The notes under the pieces are model-generated. The model was given only the letters and a program-made list of their open reading frames with translations. It was not told the origin of the DNA and searched no databases. From the NCBI RefSeq assembly GCF_002196705.1, contig NZ_NADJ01000034.1:62001-126000 (forward strand): 64,000 nt of DNA, in the 5' to 3' direction. How positions within the stretch are numbered: the first letter of the stretch is position 1; each line of letters opens with the position of its first letter. The DNA comes from Desulfosporosinus sp. FKB. Lineage in GTDB: Bacteria > Bacillota > Desulfitobacteriia > Desulfitobacteriales > Desulfitobacteriaceae. Below, piece by piece: positions 1,930 through 61,174 of this stretch. A program made the position numbers and the translations under genes.

Positions 1930-1966
1930 GAAGCTCTGATGTTTAGCTTTAGCTGAACGAGTTCAC
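1930..1966 (+). repeat. Structured repeat, 3'-end fragment (copy M)
   Basis: This fragment holds GAAGCTCTGATG, then the GTTTAGC-TTTA-GCTGAAC terminal hairpin and the GAGTTCAC end that is common to the repeat family. The 5' three quarters of the element are missing. It lies between the 425-residue surface protein and the tetrahaem cytochrome gene. Confidence 0.8.
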
Positions 1967-22221: not shown

Positions 22222-22264
22222 GCCGTCGTCACCGACGCTTCCCAATATAGGGAAGCCGTCAACA

Positions 22265-22412
22265 TTTTAGGCAGGTCTCCTGGCTCTCGAATCATTGCCG
22301 GTTCGCAGCCTTCCCAGCATAAGCCAGTGGTCAGCGAGGCTCATCGAATACAGTGGTGGGTCCGCGTCGTTTTTTATTCCGAACTTCCCTATTCTCCCCA
22401 AAGGGCACCTAA
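22265..22412 (-). promoter_or_regulatory. Cobalamin riboswitch aptamer
   Basis: Read on the minus strand it starts with AGGTGCCCTT, continues with GGGGAGAATAGGGAA and CCACCACTGTATTCG, and ends with the B12 box AGCCAGGAGACCTGCC. These blocks, in this order, are the conserved core of cobalamin (AdoCbl-type) riboswitches. It precedes cobT and the terminator just downstream. The 150 bases on its far side (22440-22588) are AT-rich and probably hold the promoter. Confidence 0.95.
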
Positions 22413-22588
22413 AATGGATTGATTTTCTATAGCATATCACAACGGTTACTAATTCTCAAGACGGGAAAAGCTTATTGGTTGAAAATAACAACAATTTAAT
22501 GAATTAAAAAGTTTGAGTTTCCGTAAAGCTAAACTATTTAATAAGCTAATCTAAACTATAACTATATTAAAAGCAAAAATCACGCGTT

Positions 22589-23004: not shown

Positions 23005-23088
23005 GTGAACTCGGATGGACCCTACCCCACCGAAGCAAGGTATGGGAACCGCCCCCACTTGAAGAAGTGAGAGTCTTCTTATGATTGG
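23005..23088 (-). repeat. Structured repeat, partial (copy I)
   Basis: On the minus strand it follows TTTAT with CCAATCATAAG, a P1 hairpin (CTCACTTCTTCAAGTGGGGG, imperfect), TTCCCATACCTTGCTTCGG, and then jumps to GAGTTCAC. The central stems and the terminal hairpin are deleted. It lies between the cytochrome and CorC-type genes. Confidence 0.8.
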
Positions 23089-27008: not shown

Positions 27009-27037
27009 CAAAACAAGAGTTGCGCAGATAATTTATC

Positions 27038-27217
27038 CAATCCTAAGGCTTCACTTCTACAAGTGGGAGTGGTTCCCATACCTTTCTTCGGTGGGGCTAG
27101 AGTCCATCCTTCAGTGCGATTGCATTTGTTATGGGCTAGGCGCTTGCGGCGAAAGTGTCCACAGGACACTTTCGTCATCGAAGTCTCGATATTCAGCTTT
27201 GCTGAACGAGTTCGCAC
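27038..27217 (+). repeat. Structured repeat, full length (copy A, subfamily 1)
   Basis: It follows TTTAT with CCAATCCTAAGG and contains the P1 hairpin, the P2 arm CTTCGGTGG, the P3 region, the perfect P4 hairpin CGAAAGTGTCC-ACA-GGACACTTTCG, the second P2 arm, the terminal hairpin (here TTCAGC-TTT-GCTGAA) and a slightly altered end GAGTTCGCAC. It fills much of the 433-base gap before dapL; the rest (27218-27441) is AT-rich promoter-like DNA. Confidence 0.88.
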
Positions 27218-42779: not shown

Positions 42780-42892
42780 CATACCTTGCTTCTGTTGGGT
42801 AGAGTCTATCCTTCAGCGCGATAGCATTTGTTATGGGCTTGGCGCTTTCGTCACCGAAGTCCCAATGTTCAGCTTTAGCTGAACGTGTTCAC
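42780..42892 (+). repeat. Structured repeat, 5'-truncated (copy B, subfamily 1)
   Basis: It starts at CATACCTTGCTTCTG (P1 is lost), keeps the P3 region AGCGCGATAGC...ATGGGCTTGGCGCT, lacks the left arm of P4, and ends with TTCAGCTTTAGCTGAA and GTGTTCAC. It directly precedes the metallopeptidase leader. Confidence 0.82.
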
Positions 42893-43755: not shown

Positions 43756-43868
43756 CCAATCGTGAGACTCCCACTTCTACAAGTGGGAGTGGTTCCCATA
43801 CCTTGCTTCGGTGGGGGTAGAGTCCCCCACCGAAGCCCCGATGGTCAGCTTTAGCTGAACGAGTTCAC
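43756..43868 (+). repeat. Structured repeat, middle deleted (copy C, subfamily 1)
   Basis: It follows TTCAT. It has the perfect P1 stem ACTCCCACTT-CTAC-AAGTGGGAGT, then P2 as an uninterrupted hairpin (GCTTCGGTGGGGG, TAGAGT, CCCCCACCGAAGC), and the terminal hairpin with GAGTTCAC. P3 and P4 are absent. The LysR gene on the other strand reads through most of it. Confidence 0.9.
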
Positions 43869-44751
43869 TAGATCTGAAAAATTCTTCGGCAAATTTCAGC
43901 CACAAATTTGCGGCATGTGGCAAGGAACGTCCTCTTTTCCAAATGATAGACATGCTATGAATGATTTGTGGTTCAGTTAATTGGACAGAGACTATACGAT
44001 TAGGGTCTAATTCGGAACAAACTGCGCTTGGTAAGAAAGCAATACCTAAATTTGCTGCTACCATTTGAGTCATTAGCTCAAGCTGAGACGTTTCAAAAAT
44101 GATGTTTGGAGAAAAACCAACATTCCTGCACTGGTTAATAATTTCATCGTGAAGACTAAAATCTTTACTATACAAAACAAAAGATTCATTAGCTAAGGCT
44201 GAGAGTTCAATGGATGGCAGCTTGCTTATGGGATTCTGTGAGGAGACGATAACAAAAAGAGGGTCCTTGGAAATAGAAATCGAGTCATAGTAGTGATGAT
44301 CTGGGACTATGCATACGACCCCAGCGTCCAGAGTACCGTCTTTTATAGCAATTGCCACTTTTTTGGAGCCATATTCAGACAAGCTAATCTCAATTAAAGG
44401 ATACTTTTGTTTAAACTCTCCTAATAATTCGGCAAATATGGTTGAGCTAGTTATTGGCAATAAACCAATTGAAATTTTCCCTTTTTCCATTTTGATTTTG
44501 TTTTCAAAATCGGTCGTTAAATTATGAAACATAACAACAACCTGTTGAGCTTGCTCTAAAAAAATAATTCCTGTATCTGTCAACTGGACGTACTTTGAGT
44601 TCCTATTAAATAGGGAAGTGCTAAGTTCAGTTTCCAAATCTTTAATCATTTTACTAATGGCGGATTGTGAGACATGGCAAACCAGAGCCGCTTTACTAAA
44701 GCTTTTTTGGCGAGCAACTTCGATAAAATATTCTAAATGTCGAATATCCAT
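43777..44751 (-). CDS. LysR-type regulator with a repeat-derived C-terminus
   Basis: The 324-residue protein starts at ATG 44751 with GGAGGTG upstream; 14 earlier codons lack support. The N-terminal HTH is MDIRHLEYFIEVARQKSFSKAALV...SQSAISKMIKDLE, followed by a substrate-binding domain (about 85-290). About 294 residues are native, and the last 30 (SELVQLKLTIGAS...) plus the TAG stop are encoded by the complement of repeat copy C, inserted at the original 3' end. The ligand and targets are unknown. It is divergent from a 36-codon frame at 44935. Confidence 0.9.
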   Translation of the reverse strand: MDIRHLEYFIEVARQKSFSKAALVCHVSQSAISKMIKDLETELSTSLFNRNSKYVQLTDTGIIFLEQAQQVVVMFHNLTTDFENKIKMEKGKISIGLLPITSSTIFAELLGEFKQKYPLIEISLSEYGSKKVAIAIKDGTLDAGVVCIVPDHHYYDSISISKDPLFVIVSSQNPISKLPSIELSALANESFVLYSKDFSLHDEIINQCRNVGFSPNIIFETSQLELMTQMVAANLGIAFLPSAVCSELDPNRIVSVQLTEPQIIHSMSIIWKRGRSLPHAANLWLKFAEEFFRSSELVQLKLTIGASVGDSTPTEARYGNHSHL

Positions 44752-44934
44752 TAGTAACACCTCCAAATACAGTCTAATATGAATTTCGATCATAGTAAAG
44801 ATTACAATTATATATTTTTTTTATGTTTTGCTGCGATTAGAATAAAGTCAGAACTAACAACAAAGGATAAAAAATGATTAACAAATAATTTCTCAAACGC
44901 GTTTGAATTATCTGGGAAAGGCTGTGATTTTTAA

Positions 44935-45081: not shown

Positions 45082-45193
45082 TGAAACTCGTGCAGTTAAG
45101 CTGAACATCGGGGCTTCAGATGGGGAATCTACCTCACCTGAAGTTAACGAAGGACCACCCACACTTATAGAAGTGGGGGGTCTTAAAAAATGG
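45082..45193 (-). repeat. Structured repeat, middle deleted (copy D, subfamily 2)
   Basis: On the minus strand it follows TTTTAT with CCATTTTTTAAGAC, P1 in the C-rich form (ACCCCCCACTT-CTAT-AAGTGTGGGT, imperfect), ACTTCAGGTGAGG...CATCTGAAGC as P2, then a degenerate end GTTCAGCTTAACTGCACGAG. P3 and P4 are absent. It is the most decayed of the subfamily 2 copies. Confidence 0.8.
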
Positions 45194-45380: not shown

Positions 45381-45475
45381 ATGAATTTGCGGCCGAACAT
45401 CTAATTCTTCTAATCATATGCTTATACGTTGCCCGCTCTATACCTCACCGGAAAACTGGAATTAACCTCTTTGAT

Positions 45476-48994: not shown

Positions 48995-49002
48995 TAATTT
49001 AT

Positions 49003-49183
49003 CTGGTCACAAGACTCCCGCTTCTACAAGTAGGAGTAGTTCCCTTATCTTGCTTCGGTGGAGGTAGAGCCCATCCTTCAGCGCGATAGCATTTGTTATG
49101 GGCTAGGCGCTTATGGCGAAAGTGTCCACAGGACACTTTCGTCACCGAAGCCCCGATGTTCAGCTTTAGCTGAACGAGCTCAC
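49003..49183 (+). repeat. Structured repeat, full length (copy E, subfamily 1)
   Basis: It follows TTTAT. P1 is CTCCCGCTTCTACAAGTAGGAG, P2 arms are GCTTCGGTG and CACCGAAGC about 85 bases apart, P3 is AGCGC...GGCGCT, P4 is a perfect CGAAAGTGTCC/GGACACTTTCG with loop ACA, the terminal hairpin is GTTCAGC-TTTA-GCTGAAC, and the end is GAGCTCAC. It is the best reference copy of subfamily 1. Confidence 0.92.
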
Positions 49184-49248
49184 TTATAAAAACGTATAAA
49201 TATTCATTATGCAACGGTCACTTGGTTCCAAGAAGTTAACTTTAGAGA

Positions 49249-49962
49249 TCAGTCACTTGAATTTGAAGCCGTGTCCTCAGAATCGTCAATGAGAAGAACG
49301 TAAACTTCTATCGGGCCATGTACACCAATGGACAGATCCATTTCAATATCCGAGGTCCGGCTGGGCCCAGTAATAAACTCCAGCGCTGCCGGTGGGTTCT
49401 CCAGGGCAGAAACTTCAGAGAGGATTTCAGCGATGGTATTTCTGATTTTTGACGTTTCCATAACCGTCAGGTGACGGGGAGGAAGCAAGCTAACGGCCCG
49501 ACCCCGCTGAGGATTGCTGCTGGTTACGATGGTGCCGGAGAGAGCAACCCCCCAGTCCGCTCCTGTCACGCCAAGTTCAGCCTGAGCAGCTAATTGGTGT
49601 CGGTCTTGAGGGGAGGGGGCCGCTTGTGAATAGCGGGCCAGTGGCCAGTTTAAGGTTGTAAACGCGGATTCGGCAAATGCTGGGAGCAGGTTCCAGCTAA
49701 CTATCGTTCCTTGATTGGTGGTTTGAGCAAAGGAAAGATCGCCGAACCATTCTTGGAGACATTGGATCGCTTCATCCGGTGATTTAACAATGGCTCCTTT
49801 ACCGCCTAAAGCTTGCCAATTATCAAGAAAGGTTCTTACCCGCTCTTGACTTGAGACTTGGAAAGAAGGAACATCGAACGCTGCTGGTTCTGGAGCTGAT
49901 TGGGGAGTGGAGCGCCCAAGTTTTGATGCCAGGAGACTAATAAAATCGTTAGTGTTGGTCAT
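49249..49962 (-). CDS. lutC: Lactate utilisation protein C (LUD domain)
   Basis: The 237-residue protein starts at ATG 49962, about 10 bases after GAGGTG. The LUD domain (about 60-225) includes GVTGADWGVALSGTIVTSS, SLLPPRHLTVM and the C-terminal ITGPSRTSDIEMDLSIGVHGPIEVYVLLID. LutC acts with LutA and LutB in oxidation of L-lactate to pyruvate in the cytoplasm. Last gene of the lutABC transcript. Confidence 0.93.
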   Translation of the reverse strand: MTNTNDFISLLASKLGRSTPQSAPEPAAFDVPSFQVSSQERVRTFLDNWQALGGKGAIVKSPDEAIQCLQEWFGDLSFAQTTNQGTIVSWNLLPAFAESAFTTLNWPLARYSQAAPSPQDRHQLAAQAELGVTGADWGVALSGTIVTSSNPQRGRAVSLLPPRHLTVMETSKIRNTIAEILSEVSALENPPAALEFITGPSRTSDIEMDLSIGVHGPIEVYVLLIDDSEDTASNSSD

Positions 49963-49980
49963 TATTGATCTCACCTCGTC

Positions 49981-51423
49981 TTACTCTTTGGAGTTGGGAG
50001 TAGGGATGGTCCCTTTGTGTTTTGCTTCGGCCCAGAGGTACATAAAGGATTTTGAAGCAACTTTAGGCAAGGTCTTGCTTTTGGTCCAATTGGAGAGAGG
50101 AGGCGGACCGCTGACAATCCGGTCATGCTGCACAAAGGGAAACTGAAACCTCGCACCTAGACGCAGAGCCTGACGCAAGGTTTTTTCATGAGTAAACATA
50201 TAACGATAGGCTTGGAATATTCGTTTTTCAATTTGAGGAGTGTGGCCTGTCATGGTCTTGCGGGCTCTAAGTTTAACCAGAAGGTCATGAAGAGGAATAC
50301 GCACAGGACAGGCTTCGGTACAAGCACCGCAAAGAGAAGAAAAGTAGGGCAGATGCCCCCATTTTTCCCAATCGTTTTCCAGGAGGGGTGTGATGACGGA
50401 GCCTATCGGTCCGGCATAAACAGATCCGTAAGCATGTCCTCCAATTTGGCGGTAAACAGGGCAGACGTTAAAGCAAGCTCCGCAGCGAATACATTTTAAG
50501 GACTGACGGAAGGTGGGATCACCAAGGATTTCAGAACGGTTATGATCTAAAATGACAAGATGAAATTCTTCTGGTCCATCAGCATCGGTTGATTGTTTGG
50601 GAGGCGTAAGAATTGTTGTATAACTGGAAAGACGCTGTCCCGTCGCACTTCGGCCGAGGAGATTGAGTAAGACGCTGAGTTCACGGAAGGAGGGTACAAT
50701 GCGCTCCATCCCCATAAGAGTAATCTGGACACGGGGCAGGGTGCTTACCATGCGCCCGTTTCCTTCATTGGTAACCATTGTGATACTGCCTGTCTCTGCG
50801 ACGGCAAAGTTACACCCAGTAATTCCAATATCACCCTGTAGAAATTTCTGACGCATTTGCTGGCGCACAAACTTTGTGAGGGTGGGTGTATCTGAACTAA
50901 GAGGGTGGCCTGCGAGAGGTTCAAAGATTTCGGCAACTTGTTGGCGGGTTTTATGCATAGCAGGAACGATAATATGAGAAGGTACTTCTCCGGCAACTTG
51001 TAGTATGTATTCTCCCAAGTCTGTCTCAACAACACTGATGCCGTCCTTTTCCAAGACTTTGTTAAGATGAATTTCTTCCGAAACCATTGATTTCGATTTA
51101 ATAATCGTTTTGGCGCCATGGTCGCGGGCAATCTTACTCACAATGTCAACGGCTTCAGAAGGAGTTTGGGCAAGATGGACGTGGCCCCCGTTTTTTTCAA
51201 CTTGTGTTATGAGTTGTTTGAGATAATAGTCCAAATTGGCAATAACATGGGAACGAATAGTATCCCCGGCTAAGCGCCACTTCTCCCAATCTCCCAGCTC
51301 ATCCGCTGCATTGTATTTGTTATGGCGCAAACGGTCTGTGGCTCGCCGAGTCGCTTTGCGCAAAAAGTCGTTGGTGAGAGCATTATCGACTCTTTTTTCA
51401 ACGATAGGTTTATATGTGGACAT
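49981..51423 (-). CDS. lutB: Lactate utilisation protein B (LUD plus ferredoxin domain)
   Basis: The 480-residue protein has an N-terminal LUD domain (about 65-290; GITGCNFAVAETGSITMVTNEGN) and a 4Fe-4S dicluster region with CIRCGACFNVCPVYR (about 306-320) and CGACTEACPVRIPL (about 360). The C-terminus is the usual LutB tail. It is the electron-transferring core of the lactate oxidase complex. Its first 14 bases overlap the end of lutA, showing translational coupling. Confidence 0.94.
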   Translation of the reverse strand: MSTYKPIVEKRVDNALTNDFLRKATRRATDRLRHNKYNAADELGDWEKWRLAGDTIRSHVIANLDYYLKQLITQVEKNGGHVHLAQTPSEAVDIVSKIARDHGAKTIIKSKSMVSEEIHLNKVLEKDGISVVETDLGEYILQVAGEVPSHIIVPAMHKTRQQVAEIFEPLAGHPLSSDTPTLTKFVRQQMRQKFLQGDIGITGCNFAVAETGSITMVTNEGNGRMVSTLPRVQITLMGMERIVPSFRELSVLLNLLGRSATGQRLSSYTTILTPPKQSTDADGPEEFHLVILDHNRSEILGDPTFRQSLKCIRCGACFNVCPVYRQIGGHAYGSVYAGPIGSVITPLLENDWEKWGHLPYFSSLCGACTEACPVRIPLHDLLVKLRARKTMTGHTPQIEKRIFQAYRYMFTHEKTLRQALRLGARFQFPFVQHDRIVSGPPPLSNWTKSKTLPKVASKSFMYLWAEAKHKGTIPTPNSKE

Positions 51424-52147
51424 TCTTCATTCCCTCCCCAAGTAACTGAATAATATGCATAGTTTTAATCGGTTTATTGATTTTCTCCAGATAACCAGAG
51501 ATATTCATGAGGCAGCCCATATCCAGACCGAGCAGCAGATCGGCTCCCGATTCTAAAACGTGTTCCGCCTTTTCGGCGACCATCGCTTCAGAAATTTTTG
51601 GCATCTTGACCGAAAAGGTTCCGCCAAAACCACAACACAATTGGGATTCGGGCAAGGGAAGAAGTTCAAGATCTTGAACATGTTCAATCAGGGTAAGGGG
51701 AGCATCTTTAATTCCTAGAAGCCTGGTGGCATGACAGGAAGGATGATAGGTGGCTTTGGCCTTATATTTGGCCCCTAAATCAGGTTTATGCAAGACATCA
51801 ACAATGAATTGAGTAAATTCATAGCTTTTGTGAATCAAGTCTTCGGCCTTAGCAAGATAAACTGGATCATTTTCAAAAAGAAACGGATAGTAATGATGGA
51901 TCATAGCTATGCATGATCCACTCGGTCCGACGACAACTTCGCTCTTCTCAAAGGCATCAATAAGTGTACGAGCTACCTCCCGGGCATCATCGAAATAACC
52001 GGAATTAAAGGCAATTTGGCCGCAGCAGGCTTGTCCATCGGGCACATCAACGGTATGCCCCAAGTATGTAAGAATTTTTGCCATCGTCAGATCAACGTCC
52101 GGATAAAGAGCATTCGCCAGACAGGTGGCAAAGAGGGAAACTTTCAT
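51410..52147 (-). CDS. lutA: Lactate utilisation protein A (CCG-domain Fe-S protein)
   Basis: The 245-residue protein starts at ATG 52147 (AGGGATGG upstream). Two cysteine-rich CCG domains are seen: PDGQACCGQIAFNSGY (about 36-51) and QLCCGFGGTFSVKMP (about 165-179), with YHPSCHATRLLG between. It is the GlpC-like subunit of the LutABC system. First gene of the operon; no permease gene is attached. Confidence 0.94.
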   Translation of the reverse strand: MKVSLFATCLANALYPDVDLTMAKILTYLGHTVDVPDGQACCGQIAFNSGYFDDAREVARTLIDAFEKSEVVVGPSGSCIAMIHHYYPFLFENDPVYLAKAEDLIHKSYEFTQFIVDVLHKPDLGAKYKAKATYHPSCHATRLLGIKDAPLTLIEHVQDLELLPLPESQLCCGFGGTFSVKMPKISEAMVAEKAEHVLESGADLLLGLDMGCLMNISGYLEKINKPIKTMHIIQLLGEGMKNVHI

Positions 52148-52272
52148 AACTGACCATCCCTTCGTTAAAACTATTCACGCATAGTATAAAGTTAGTATTT
52201 CCTAAAACTATGAGTTTTGATGCGGTAGGAATGGCTTTTTGATGGATTTGTCTGCGGGAATGACTTTAAATG

Positions 52273-52315
52273 CAAAGGAGAAGCTTAGGCAAAATAAGCC
52301 TAAACTTCTCCTTTG
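52273..52315 (-). terminator. Terminator of the 56-residue gene
   Basis: CAAAGGAGAAGCTTAGGC (52273-52290) pairs with GCCTAAACTTCTCCTTTG (52298-52315) with one mismatch around loop AAAATAA. It lies between that small gene and lutA, and in the minus direction a short T-rich tail follows. Confidence 0.75.
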
Positions 52316-52414
52316 TATTACTGGAATTAATGGCAAAAGAATCAACTCTCATAACATAGATCGAGTACATAGCTCTTTATGAGCAAGAATGAACCTTTAA
52401 GATAAAAGACTTCA

Positions 52415-52585
52415 TTAGCCAAGGATAGGAACATTGGGTTCATTATACCAAATTGAAATTACAGTTGTTGATCCTGTACTTTGAGTAATATTAACAACTT
52501 TAACCCAACTGTTATCCTCGAACCATTGATTAATTTCTTTTTCCAGAATTCTTGGATCGGGGGAAGTGAAAATCTTTACATTCAT
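52415..52585 (-). CDS. Small hypothetical protein (56 residues)
   Basis: The frame reads MNVKIFTSPDPRILEKEINQ and ends with STTVISIWYNEPNVPILG. An N-terminal beta strand, a helix (about 10-24) and two strands suggest a compact alpha/beta fold. Its own terminator and conserved-looking composition favour a real gene, although the ribosome binding site (AAAGGAC) is weak. It lies upstream of lutABC in the same direction but is separated by that terminator. No family recognised. Confidence 0.6.
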   Translation of the reverse strand: MNVKIFTSPDPRILEKEINQWFEDNSWVKVVNITQSTGSTTVISIWYNEPNVPILG

Positions 52586-52630
52586 AGGGGTTAGTTCGTC
52601 CTTTCGATGAAATATTAACGTTCTTTTGGT

Positions 52631-52653
52631 AGTAAACTCGTTCAGCTAAAGCT
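52631..52653 (-). repeat. Structured repeat, terminal fragment (copy N)
   Basis: On the minus strand, AGCTTTAGCTGAACGAGTTTAC, the last part of the terminal hairpin and end, remains just upstream of the 56-residue gene, where it may lie in the promoter. Confidence 0.6.
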
Positions 52654-52797
52654 TTAAACTTATCATAGCTGCTATGTGAAGAATGTCAAGGAAGGACATT
52701 TGAAAGATAAATCATTTCAGAAAAAACTATTTATCTTTCCAAGAGCATTATGTTAAACGTGACGTCCTATGGATGTAGCCCTCTAAAAGTAAAAATT

Positions 52798-52832
52798 CCT
52801 GCGGTCTTTAAGTATAGCTTAAAAACCGCAGG
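52798..52832. terminator. Hairpin abutting repeat copy F
   Basis: CCTGCGGTCTTTAAG (52798-52812) pairs with CTTAAAAACCGCAGG (52818-52832) with one mismatch. It is followed directly by GTTTAT and copy F. In the minus direction, TTTTTACTTTT follows, so it would terminate transcription of the 31-residue gene through the repeat. Confidence 0.75.
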
Positions 52833-52838
52833 GTTTAT

Positions 52839-53016
52839 CCAGTTTTTAAGACCCCCACTTCTATAAGTGGGGGTGGGTCCTTCGTTAACTTCAGGTGGGG
52901 TAGAGTCCTCCTTCGCCGCTAAGTATTCCTATTGGAAAAGGCGGCTCGGCAATAATGTCCACTGGACATTATTGTATCTGAAGCAACGATGTTCAGCTTT
53001 AGCTGAACGAGTTCAC
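52839..53016 (+). repeat. Structured repeat, full length (copy F, subfamily 2)
   Basis: It follows TTTAT. P1 is the perfect ACCCCCACTT-CTAT-AAGTGGGGGT, P2 arms are ACTTCAG and CTGAAGC, P3 is GCCGC...GGCGGC, P4 is the perfect CAATAATGTCC/GGACATTATTG with loop ACT, and the terminal hairpin and GAGTTCAC are as in subfamily 1. It is the reference copy of subfamily 2. It ends 9 bases from the stop of the 31-residue gene. Confidence 0.92.
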
Positions 53017-54262: not shown

Positions 54263-54382
54263 AAATTCTTCTAGTAACCATAAGCCGTTCAAATTCAAGG
54301 AAATAAAGAGCACAGAATATTATAAGTTAATTTTGTACCATAAAATAGAGTAACAGCACAAAGAAAAATAGTGGGTAACAGT

Positions 54383-54418
54383 AAAACGAACTTGAGTCAA
54401 ACTACTCAAGTTCGTTTT
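54383..54418. terminator. Bidirectional terminator
   Basis: AAAACGAACTTGAGT (54383-54397) pairs perfectly with ACTCAAGTTCGTTTT (54404-54418). It lies between the LysR gene and the convergent zinc-ribbon gene. Confidence 0.85.
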
Positions 54419-54449
54419 GCGACACGCCTTATTTTAACGTTAATGACTA

Positions 54450-57273: not shown

Positions 57274-57451
57274 GTGAACTCGTTTACGCTAAAGCTGAAC
57301 ATCGTTGCTTCAGATACAATAATGTCCAGTGGACATTATTGCCGAGCCGCCTTTTCCAATAGGAATACTTAGCGGCGAAGGAGGACTCTACCCCACCTGA
57401 AGTTAACGAAGGTCCCACCCCCACTTATAGAAGTGGGGGCTTAAAAACTGG
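57274..57451 (-). repeat. Structured repeat, full length (copy G, subfamily 2)
   Basis: In minus orientation it follows TTTAT and matches copy F almost throughout, including the perfect P4 CAATAATGTCC/GGACATTATTG and P3. The terminal hairpin right arm is changed to GCGTAAAC, weakening P5. It lies in the gap between hutH and the cupin gene. Confidence 0.9.
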
Positions 57452-58401: not shown

Positions 58402-61119
58402 ATGACAGAAAACATTATGCGAGAGGAAAAAACAATCGGTGTTTATGGTATGTCCTGCCAACACTGTGTCAATCATGTCACCAAACTGTTAGAGTCCATA
58501 CCGAGTGTTGAGCAGGTAAAGGTCTCCTTAGAGGATTCGCAGGCCAGTTTTACCTGTGACCCATCTCAACTAGACATGGGTGCTTTGCGGCAGGAAATCG
58601 AAGACGCCGGATATTCCTTAGATAAGCCTGTTGATGATCAACAATCAGGGGAAAATTTAGGAGATAACAAAGAATCAACAATAATTCCGTTACAGTCAAT
58701 TTCCATGAGTCCTGAGGAGAAAAAACAGCAGTTTAAGATTAGCGGCATGACCTGTGCCAATTGTGCTTTAACTATTGAAAAAGGGCTCAAAAACATGCCG
58801 GGCGTTAATTATGCTGCTGTTAATTTCGCCTCAGAAAAACTAACAGTGGCCCTTGATCCTAATAAGATCCAAGAGGAAACTCTTTTAGCTAAGATTAAGG
58901 ACCTTGGGTATGCTGCTCAAAGCGTTGATGCGGGGAAACATCAATTTAAAGTTGGCGGTATGTCCTGTGCGAACTGTGCGCTGGCCATTGAGAAAAAACT
59001 TAACGGGACTGAGGGAGTTCAAAAGGCGGCCGTTAACTTTGCCAATGAAACGGTCATGGTTGAGTTCGATCCCAATGTTGTTTCTATAGGAAAAATCTTC
59101 GAACAGGTTCGTGAAGCCGGATATACGCCTATTGAATCGAAGGATGAAAACGATGAGGATCGGATAGCAATTCAACAAAGGAATTGGCTTATCTTTAGTG
59201 CGGTTCTTTCGCTGCCAATTATGCCTCTGATGTATCTTCCGATGAGCAGACCTTTGATGTATTTAATTCTTGCTCTGGCAACGATCGTTCAATTTACTGC
59301 CGGATGGACCTTTTACCGGGGAGCCTACCATGCCTTGAAAAACCGCTCGGCTAATATGGATGTTCTAGTGGCCCTGGGGATTACAGCCTCCTACGGTTAT
59401 AGTCTGATGACAACTCTGCATATGTTTGTCCCTTCGTTGTTTTTTAAGGGCCCCAATTTCTTTGATACCTCTGCTCTTTTAATTACCTTTGTGCGTTTTG
59501 GCAAATATCTGGAAGCAAAAGCAAAAGGCCGCGCCGGACAAGCTTTGAAGCGACTGCTGGAGCTGCAGGCAGATCGAGCCCGTTTGATAATCAATGGAGA
59601 AGAAAAAGAAGTGGCCGCGTCTGATTTAAAAATCGGCGATCTCGTTTTTGTGAAAGCGGGAGAACGAATTCCCGTTGACGGCGAAATTGTGGAAGGACAA
59701 GCAAGTATCGATGAGTCTATGCTGACCGGTGAGTCGATTCCAGTCGATAAGGGAGCAGGCGATGCTGTTATCGGAGCGACGATCAACCGTTCGGGGAGTA
59801 TCAAAGTAAAAACGACAAAAACGGGGCAAGATACTGTTCTTTCCGGGATTATCAAAATGGTAGAGGATGCCCAAGGGGTTAAACCACCCATTCAACGTTT
59901 AGCAGATACGATCTCTAATTATTTTGTCCCTACTGTGGTCTCCATTTCTGTCCTTACTTTTTTGATTTGGTATTTAGGTCTCCATAGGTCGTTTGTTTTC
60001 GCGTTTACAGCAGCAATTGCAGTTTTGGTCATCGCGTGTCCTTGTGCTTTAGGTCTGGCAACACCGACAGCCATCATGGTAGGCAGCGGGGTTGGGCTAA
60101 ACCGAGGGATATTGTTTAAATCTGCGGCTGTTCTCGAAGGAATTGCTCATTTGCAAGCCATTGGCTTTGACAAAACAGGAACCTTGACCAAAGGAACTCC
60201 TGAAGTAACGGATGTCATCCCTTTTGCCAATTATACAAAACAAGAGGTCTTAAAGGTTGCCGCTGCCGGCGAACACCCCTCAATCCATCCTTTGGCGCAA
60301 GCCGTGGTTGCAGCAGCGAAGCAGGAGCAGCTGGATATTCAAGAGGTCTCTGATTATCGAGAGGAGCCCGGGTATGGCGTTACTTGCTTGTACGGCGGAC
60401 AGCAGTTATTAATTGGCAACCTGAAACTAATGAATAGCTATAAGATTGATGTTCAGGAAGCCCAAAGCGATTTTCAAAACTTGGCAGAATTAGGACGGAC
60501 TACAAGTTTTATTGCTTTGGATGGTCGGGTAATTGGTATTATCGCCCTGGCAGATGTGGTTAAGGAGAGCACAAAAGAAGCCATCGATCGACTCCATCAT
60601 TTAGGCTTGAAGACATTCATGATTACAGGTGACAATGATCGGGTCGCTCAAGTCGTTGGCCGGCAGGTTGGAATTGATGAAGTTATTTCTGAAATCCTGC
60701 CTCAGGATAAAATTAGTGTTATTAGACGCTATCAAGACCAAGGCTACAAGGTAGCGATGGTTGGAGACGGTATTAATGATGCTCCGGCCTTAGCCCAAGC
60801 CGACGTAGGAATTGCTATCGGTTCGGGAACTGATGTCGCTAAGGAAACCGGTGATGTGGTGTTAGTACGCAATGACCTCCTGGATGTGGAACGGGCAATT
60901 CGTCTAGGCAGGAGAACCCTTGGCAAGATTAAACAAAATCTGTTTTGGGCCTTGATTTATAATACTATCGGAATACCCGTCGCTGCAGGAATTCTTTATC
61001 CCTTAACGGGACAGCTCCTGCCCCCCGAGTGGGCCGGTTTGGCCATGGCTTTTTCATCAGTCTCTGTTGTGACCAATTCCCTGTTGCTGCGGCGGTATGA
61101 TAAAAGCTTAATGACCTAG
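58402..61119 (+). CDS. copA: Copper-exporting P1B-type ATPase with three metal-binding domains
   Basis: The 905-residue pump starts at ATG 58402 after AAGGAGG. Three heavy-metal-binding domains carry GMSCQHC (about 15), GMTCANC (about 116) and GMSCANC (about 190). The membrane part has eight helices with the CPC motif in [13 protein letters not shown] (about 548). The phosphorylation site is DKTGTLTKG (about 590), with HP in EHPSIHPLA and [14 protein letters not shown] further on. It moves Cu(I) out of the cytoplasm. Three domains rather than the usual one or two is a slight extension. The TAG stop is the first part of repeat copy H. Confidence 0.96.
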
Positions 61120-61174
61120 GGGGTAGAGTCTCCCACCGAAGCCCCGATGTTCAGCTTTAGCTGAACGAGTTCAC
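61119..61174 (+). repeat. Structured repeat, 3'-half (copy H, subfamily 1)
   Basis: It begins at the last base of the copA stop with GGGGGTAGAGTC, a TCCCACCGAAGCCCC P2 arm, and the full terminal hairpin with GAGTTCAC. P1, P3 and P4 are missing. It separates copA from copZ. Confidence 0.85.

Follow-up and report, generated by a model that had tools for sequence, protein, structure and literature searches.

Short, gene-less mobile elements with palindromes near both ends, including versions that consist of the ends only, are known from Haloquadratum walsbyi as palindrome-associated transposable elements (PATEs; PMC3119063), and the IS200/IS605 elements IS608 and ISDra2 show a preference for the +1 base (PMC5934647). 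Here we characterize a family of hairpin-rich repeats in a stretch of 64,000 nucleotides (nt) from Desulfosporosinus sp. FKB (the window; assembly GCF_002196705.1, contig NZ_NADJ01000034.1, positions 62,001–126,000, forward strand), represented by two copies, E and F, with stems designated P1 to P5. We consider it probable (roughly 75%) that the E/F repeats are PATE-like, non-autonomous mobile DNA (IS200/IS605-type), moved as a single strand by a Y1 enzyme supplied in trans. We found no published description of this repeat family in Desulfosporosinus in the literature searched.

The family shares with the H. walsbyi PATEs (PMC3119063) the absence of genes, of terminal inverted repeats and of target duplication, palindromes close to each end, a 5′-side target of 4–5 base pairs (bp), end-only versions and the insertion of other mobile elements beside or inside copies. 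It differs in sequence and phylum, its interior consists of stacked, covarying and invertible hairpins, and a parent transposon was not found. Insertion 3′ of a short T-rich motif that is kept at the left flank, a short motif closing the right end, subterminal hairpins and the +1 preference are shared with IS200/IS605 elements (IS608, ISDra2; PMC5934647); unlike these, the Desulfosporosinus family has neither tnpA nor tnpB and carries additional interior hairpins. The PATE-like element of Halanaerobium hydrogeniformans (PMC7290912) is likewise an ends-only relative of IS605 in an anaerobic bacterium, but is a single copy from a resident IS605 rather than a high-copy orphan family. REP/REPIN sequences with TnpA-REP/RAYT (PMC8266576) are also short hairpin repeats in high copy number with Y1 relatives in the same genomes; here, however, the foot tetranucleotide is another one, the repeats are unlinked to RAYT genes and the architecture is multi-hairpin. 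The Desulfosporosinus family is thus a recently mobile orphan family of PATE type whose interior is unusually rich in hairpins.

Anatomy and target site

Sequence comparison fixes the boundaries of the elements, their target motif, the absence of target duplication and the near-terminal hairpins. In flank alignments, full copies start directly after TTNAT (29 of 30 F copies, TTTAT in 25 of the 30), and T stands at −5 in 80/92 copies without being demanded by the search pattern. Full copies close with TTCAC and then T; the +1 position is T at 164/170 right ends, and +2 and +3 are mixed. Target-site duplication was lacking in alignments of about 60 copies with their flanks and in the comparison with sister-species sites that have no copy. 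Hairpins lie near both ends (P1 left, P5 right) with P2 between them, and terminal inverted repeats are lacking.

The forms range from 31 to about 280 nt, which leaves no room for a transposase gene. The small form (~110 nt) has a single perfect hairpin around GTAGA as its P2; the P2 of E and F is a branched domain enclosing P3 and P4, and larger forms contain additional hairpins. The 31-nt end-only forms have P5 alone, arranged as TTTAT/CGAT-P5-GAGTTCAC (slashes mark insertion points), CGAT being the foot that precedes the P5 hairpin.

Copies E and F lie exactly where a sequence-only reading of the window had placed them (Table 1), and the E-type and F-type subfamilies that it distinguished are real (alignment of 22 copies of each). 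Its P4 stems agree to the letter, with three pairs altered in both arms. In P2 the inner pairs are as quoted, whereas the outer A/C of F is unpaired; in P1 the change from T-A to C-G holds, but what was quoted as E is the family consensus; copy E reads ACTCCCGCTT/AAGTAGGAGT, which includes a single C/A mismatch and a single G/T pair. The right ends, described as identical, differ by one base (GAGCTCAC in E and GAGTTCAC in F).

In Halothermothrix-type copies (L163, L168, L206, L228 and L234) a TATG-like tetranucleotide precedes P1 and the flanks are TANAT-like, in place of TAAG and TTNAT, which may reflect a change of guide and target. We do not claim guide–target covariation for them, as the copies are few and TATG is also seen with TTTAT. 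Nor do we claim a preference for transcription terminators (a hairpin of at least 7 bp beside the insertion in 8/49 copies versus 27/349 control TTTAT sites, p = 0.06).

Abundance and recent insertion

Comparison of genomes documents the spread of the family and its recent insertion in this lineage. Copy counts derive from right-end pattern searches and BLAST listings. The pattern matched 158 times in the window genome, 150 in a sister species (G014), 204 in G013 and 68 in G008; it was present in 27 of the 30 genomes of the genus, and a reversed-pattern control gave none. Queried with E or with F, the genome gave at least about 40 copies each time. Among the matches listed, F copies are mostly 95–97% identical to F, which indicates recent amplification. 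The family extends to other Bacillota, with the pattern present in Acididesulfobacillus, Desulfotruncus, Tepidibacillus, one metagenome-assembled genome each of Halothermothrix and Dethiobacter, and others; searched for a phage or plasmid origin, viral contigs, plasmids and phages gave no match to the family.

At the site of an F copy the sister species reads GCTTTAT/TG and has no copy. The site of a small copy reads ATCAC/TAGATTT there, and in the window that copy is preceded by TTCAT and followed by TAGATCT. Both sites agree with insertion at TTNAT/T without duplication. E-type and F-like copies have also inserted independently, on opposite strands, at a single ATAAATTTAT site that two species share. 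In the closed genome G008 (terminus near 2.5–2.75 Mb), the element strand is the lagging-strand template in 48/77 copies (binomial p = 0.04, Fisher about 0.08), a direction that matches IS200/IS605 biology and is confounded by gene orientation.

Covariation of the hairpins

In an alignment of the E and F copies of the window genome (A1; 38 pairs), 11/38 pairs changed on both sides, and double-changed cells numbered 169 versus 68.8 after shuffling (0 of 500 shuffles reached the observed value) and 5–14 in slid controls. A cross-genus alignment (28 copies, several genera) had nine P1/P2 pairs altered on both sides and 45 double-changed cells versus 15.9 shuffled (0 of 500); P5 belonged to the search pattern of this set, so covariation there covers P1 and P2. 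Under a tree-aware null, in which parsimony substitutions were redistributed across the branches of a FastTree tree, covariation summed over the whole structure gave p ≤ 0.0025 in both alignments, A1 exceeding 400/400 simulations. As a total, covariation thus exceeded both shuffles and the tree-aware null, but a single pair was individually significant in the cross-genus alignment (P2 pair 87–110, E = 0.02) and none in A1, because E and F are separated mostly by a single event at each pair.

P4-type stems occur in about ten distinct complementary sequences. Fold z-scores were −4.6 (E) and −6.0 (F) for RNA and −7.5 for F as DNA. Single-copy change rates were lower at stem than at other sites (0.040 versus 0.065 and 0.0165 versus 0.033 in the two subfamilies, about half to 0.6), which implies that some constraint acts or acted, and P5 is almost unchanged among copies. 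The sequence-only reading had proposed a selected fold of RNA or single-strand DNA; P1/P2 covariation across genera, the tree-aware total and the varied P4 stems support a single-strand fold, whereas the RNA option is not supported.

Inversion of the P2 domain

Ten sampled loci, including one in the window genome, have normal ends that enclose the P2 domain in inverted orientation, and six further loci hold both orientations together. In fully aligned copies, 77–80 of about 95 bases of the inverted domain match F when reversed, versus 58 in the direct orientation. Inversion occurs in several genomes, and copies that carry it are found at various sites whose flanks differ; they have therefore stayed mobile. 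Inversion keeps DNA hairpins but turns an RNA into its complement; for this reason we prefer single-strand DNA over RNA, and it is the option that best fits the supported single-strand fold.

PMC8604942 and PMC8794818 describe arm homogenization and spacer inversion as outcomes of template switching in inverted repeats. The earlier argument that such covariation is hard to explain for passive debris was therefore overstated: template switching between hairpin arms can yield compensating changes without selection, and spacer inversion, its other mark, is also present here. Some of the covariation may thus stem from mutation and not from selection. Indeed, two E copies have both sides of one P4 pair altered, with no one-sided intermediates, which together with the inverted domains would suit an entirely mutational origin, in which template switching homogenizes the hairpin arms of unconstrained dead copies. 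We regard this extreme as unlikely in view of the reduced change rate of stem sites in both subfamilies and the near invariance of P5. We prefer the reading that the stems of a single-strand DNA element are held partly by need and partly by the copying mechanism. The covariation is real, yet it is not evidence for an RNA gene.

Search for a mobilizing enzyme

A Y1 gene is absent from 3/3 element-free genomes and present in 25/27 element-bearing ones, an association that is consistent with a Y1 enzyme, within few and partly incomplete genomes. P1 is weakly similar (E = 0.005) to a hairpin that lies upstream of a broken TnpA gene (L263); P5 had no match at the TnpA and TnpB loci examined. TnpB is not required for persistence, because G008 holds 68 copies without a TnpB match. 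Two loci tried as the parent transposon, L115 and L301, turned out to hold IS605 elements or remnants directly adjoining a copy. These IS605-type sequences (L115 1185–1361 and L301 1302–1920) lie immediately behind a copy's TTCACT end, as though one element had used the end of another as its target.

Most of these genomes carry domesticated Y1 transposases (RAYTs), and the repeats could be REP/REPIN-like sequences mobilized by them. Single-hairpin end-only forms are known, and the window genome and G008 carry RAYT-like genes and no intact IS200-type TnpA. Such an origin nevertheless appears improbable, given that the repeat does not flank the RAYT-like loci examined and that the richest genome (G013, 204 matches) has solely IS200-type hits among the matches listed. 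Moreover, the foot before the hairpin is GTAG or GGAG in REPs, and differs from the CGAT found here.

Proposed mechanism and alternatives

In the mechanism that we favour, a copy would be exposed as a single DNA strand, as may happen on the lagging-strand template, and its left (P1) and right (P5) hairpins would be bound by a trans-acting Y1 (HUH) TnpA-type transposase. The enzyme would cleave the strand behind TTNAT at the left flank and behind TTCAC at the right end; the cut element would be closed into a single-strand circle and inserted after another TTNAT, with preference for TTTAT and then T. The hairpins of the subfamilies would diverge, the fold rather than the letters counting for mobility, and template switching would copy one arm onto the other and could flip the P2 domain. 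The interior hairpins perhaps just hold the two ends of the single strand near each other. Both the Y1 enzyme and the single-strand intermediate are inferred.

Several observations weigh against this mechanism. No TnpA- or TnpB-encoding element with the family ends was found in the part of the TnpA/TnpB loci examined from the window genome, the genus and ten other genomes. The Y1 genes of the window genome are two RAYT-like ones; it lacks a canonical IS200-type TnpA and still carries insertions absent from the sister species. Clean junctions are few: the F site of the sister species also lacks 46–49 bases to the right of the insertion, and the small-copy site carries diverged bases. The lagging-strand bias is weak and may track gene orientation. 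Finally, interior hairpins are unnecessary in the known IS200/IS605 mechanism. A more speculative possibility, which we hold to be doubtful, is that the interior is a strand-symmetric folding module, in which hairpins are added, inverted and rewritten by template switching and the shape is kept because the folded interior draws the two ends together, and that the elements are moved in genomes without a canonical IS200-type TnpA by some other enzyme.

A structured non-coding RNA or RNA-guided element, with P1–P5 as a selected RNA scaffold (for example, a TnpB omega RNA with its guide at the right flank), would account for the strong RNA folds, the covariation and the fewer changes at stem sites, and the element ends where an omega RNA guide would start. 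We consider it very improbable: there is no Rfam 15 match at the gathering score, the P2 domain is found either way round with respect to P1 and P5, with inverted copies at several sites, the interior ranges from zero to several hairpins, and the G008 copies persist without TnpB. A classical miniature inverted-repeat transposable element moved by a DDE transposase was rejected, as the family has neither terminal inverted repeats nor target duplication. Immobile debris or an assembly artefact, which the numerous truncated copies in the window might suggest, is hardly credible for near-identical, uniform-ended copies at many sites that differ in presence between sister species and recur in many independently sequenced genomes.

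Features of the window

Table 1. Family copies, target motifs and stems in the window.
Feature	Position	Strand	Basis or remark
TTTAT target motif, retained left flank of copy E	48998–49002	+	Sequence; copy alignment
Copy E, E-type element	49003–49183	+	Sequence, alignment, fold
Stems of copy E	P1 49014–49037; P2 arms 49052–49060/49143–49151; P4 49117–49141; P5 49158–49175	+	
TTTAT target motif flanking copy F on the left	52834–52838	+	Sequence, alignment
Copy F, F-type element	52839–53016	+	+1 position is T (53017)
Stems of copy F	P1 52851–52874; P2 arms about 52889–52895/52977–52983; P4 52950–52974; P5 52991–53008	+	
Second full F-type copy, 98% identity to F	57274–57451	−	Alignment
Small form: P1, P2 as one perfect closed hairpin, P5	43756–43868	+	Left flank TTCAT
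E-type copy	27035–27215	+	Search and alignment
F-type small copy, right end damaged	45086–45193	−	Left end at 45193; approximate boundaries
E-type copy without P4, left end replaced	42782–42891	+	Within a 180-nt stretch missing from the sister species G014
Left-end fragment (P1/P2)	23013–23077	−	
Right-end fragment (part of P2, P5, end)	61106–61173	+	Lies at the stop codon of a gene for a heavy-metal P-type ATPase
Right-end fragment (P5 and end)	1930–1966	+	

The small copy lies antisense at the 3′ end of a gene for a LysR-type regulator (window 43756–44793), whose last ~28 codons and stop come from the copy; the sister-species protein aligns only as far as the insertion point. Outside the E/F family, ~183 nt at 54264–54447 with the inverted repeat AACTTGAGT...ACTCAAGTT are missing from the sister species, and AAGTCCCCTCCC...GGGAGGGGATGAATTT at about 45400–45475 resembles an IS605-type left end that has no gene, and would be a separate gene-less element or a remnant. 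A cobalamin riboswitch (Rfam RF00174, 79 bits) lies at 22253–22427 on the reverse strand.

Implications

For the discovery of RNAs, the family is a caution, in that strong covariation here does not imply RNA. With hundreds of copies and both domain orientations in related genomes, it also offers a natural test of selection versus template switching in hairpin covariation. The identity of the transposase would tell whether IS200-type enzymes or their domesticated relatives mobilize gene-less elements in these bacteria.

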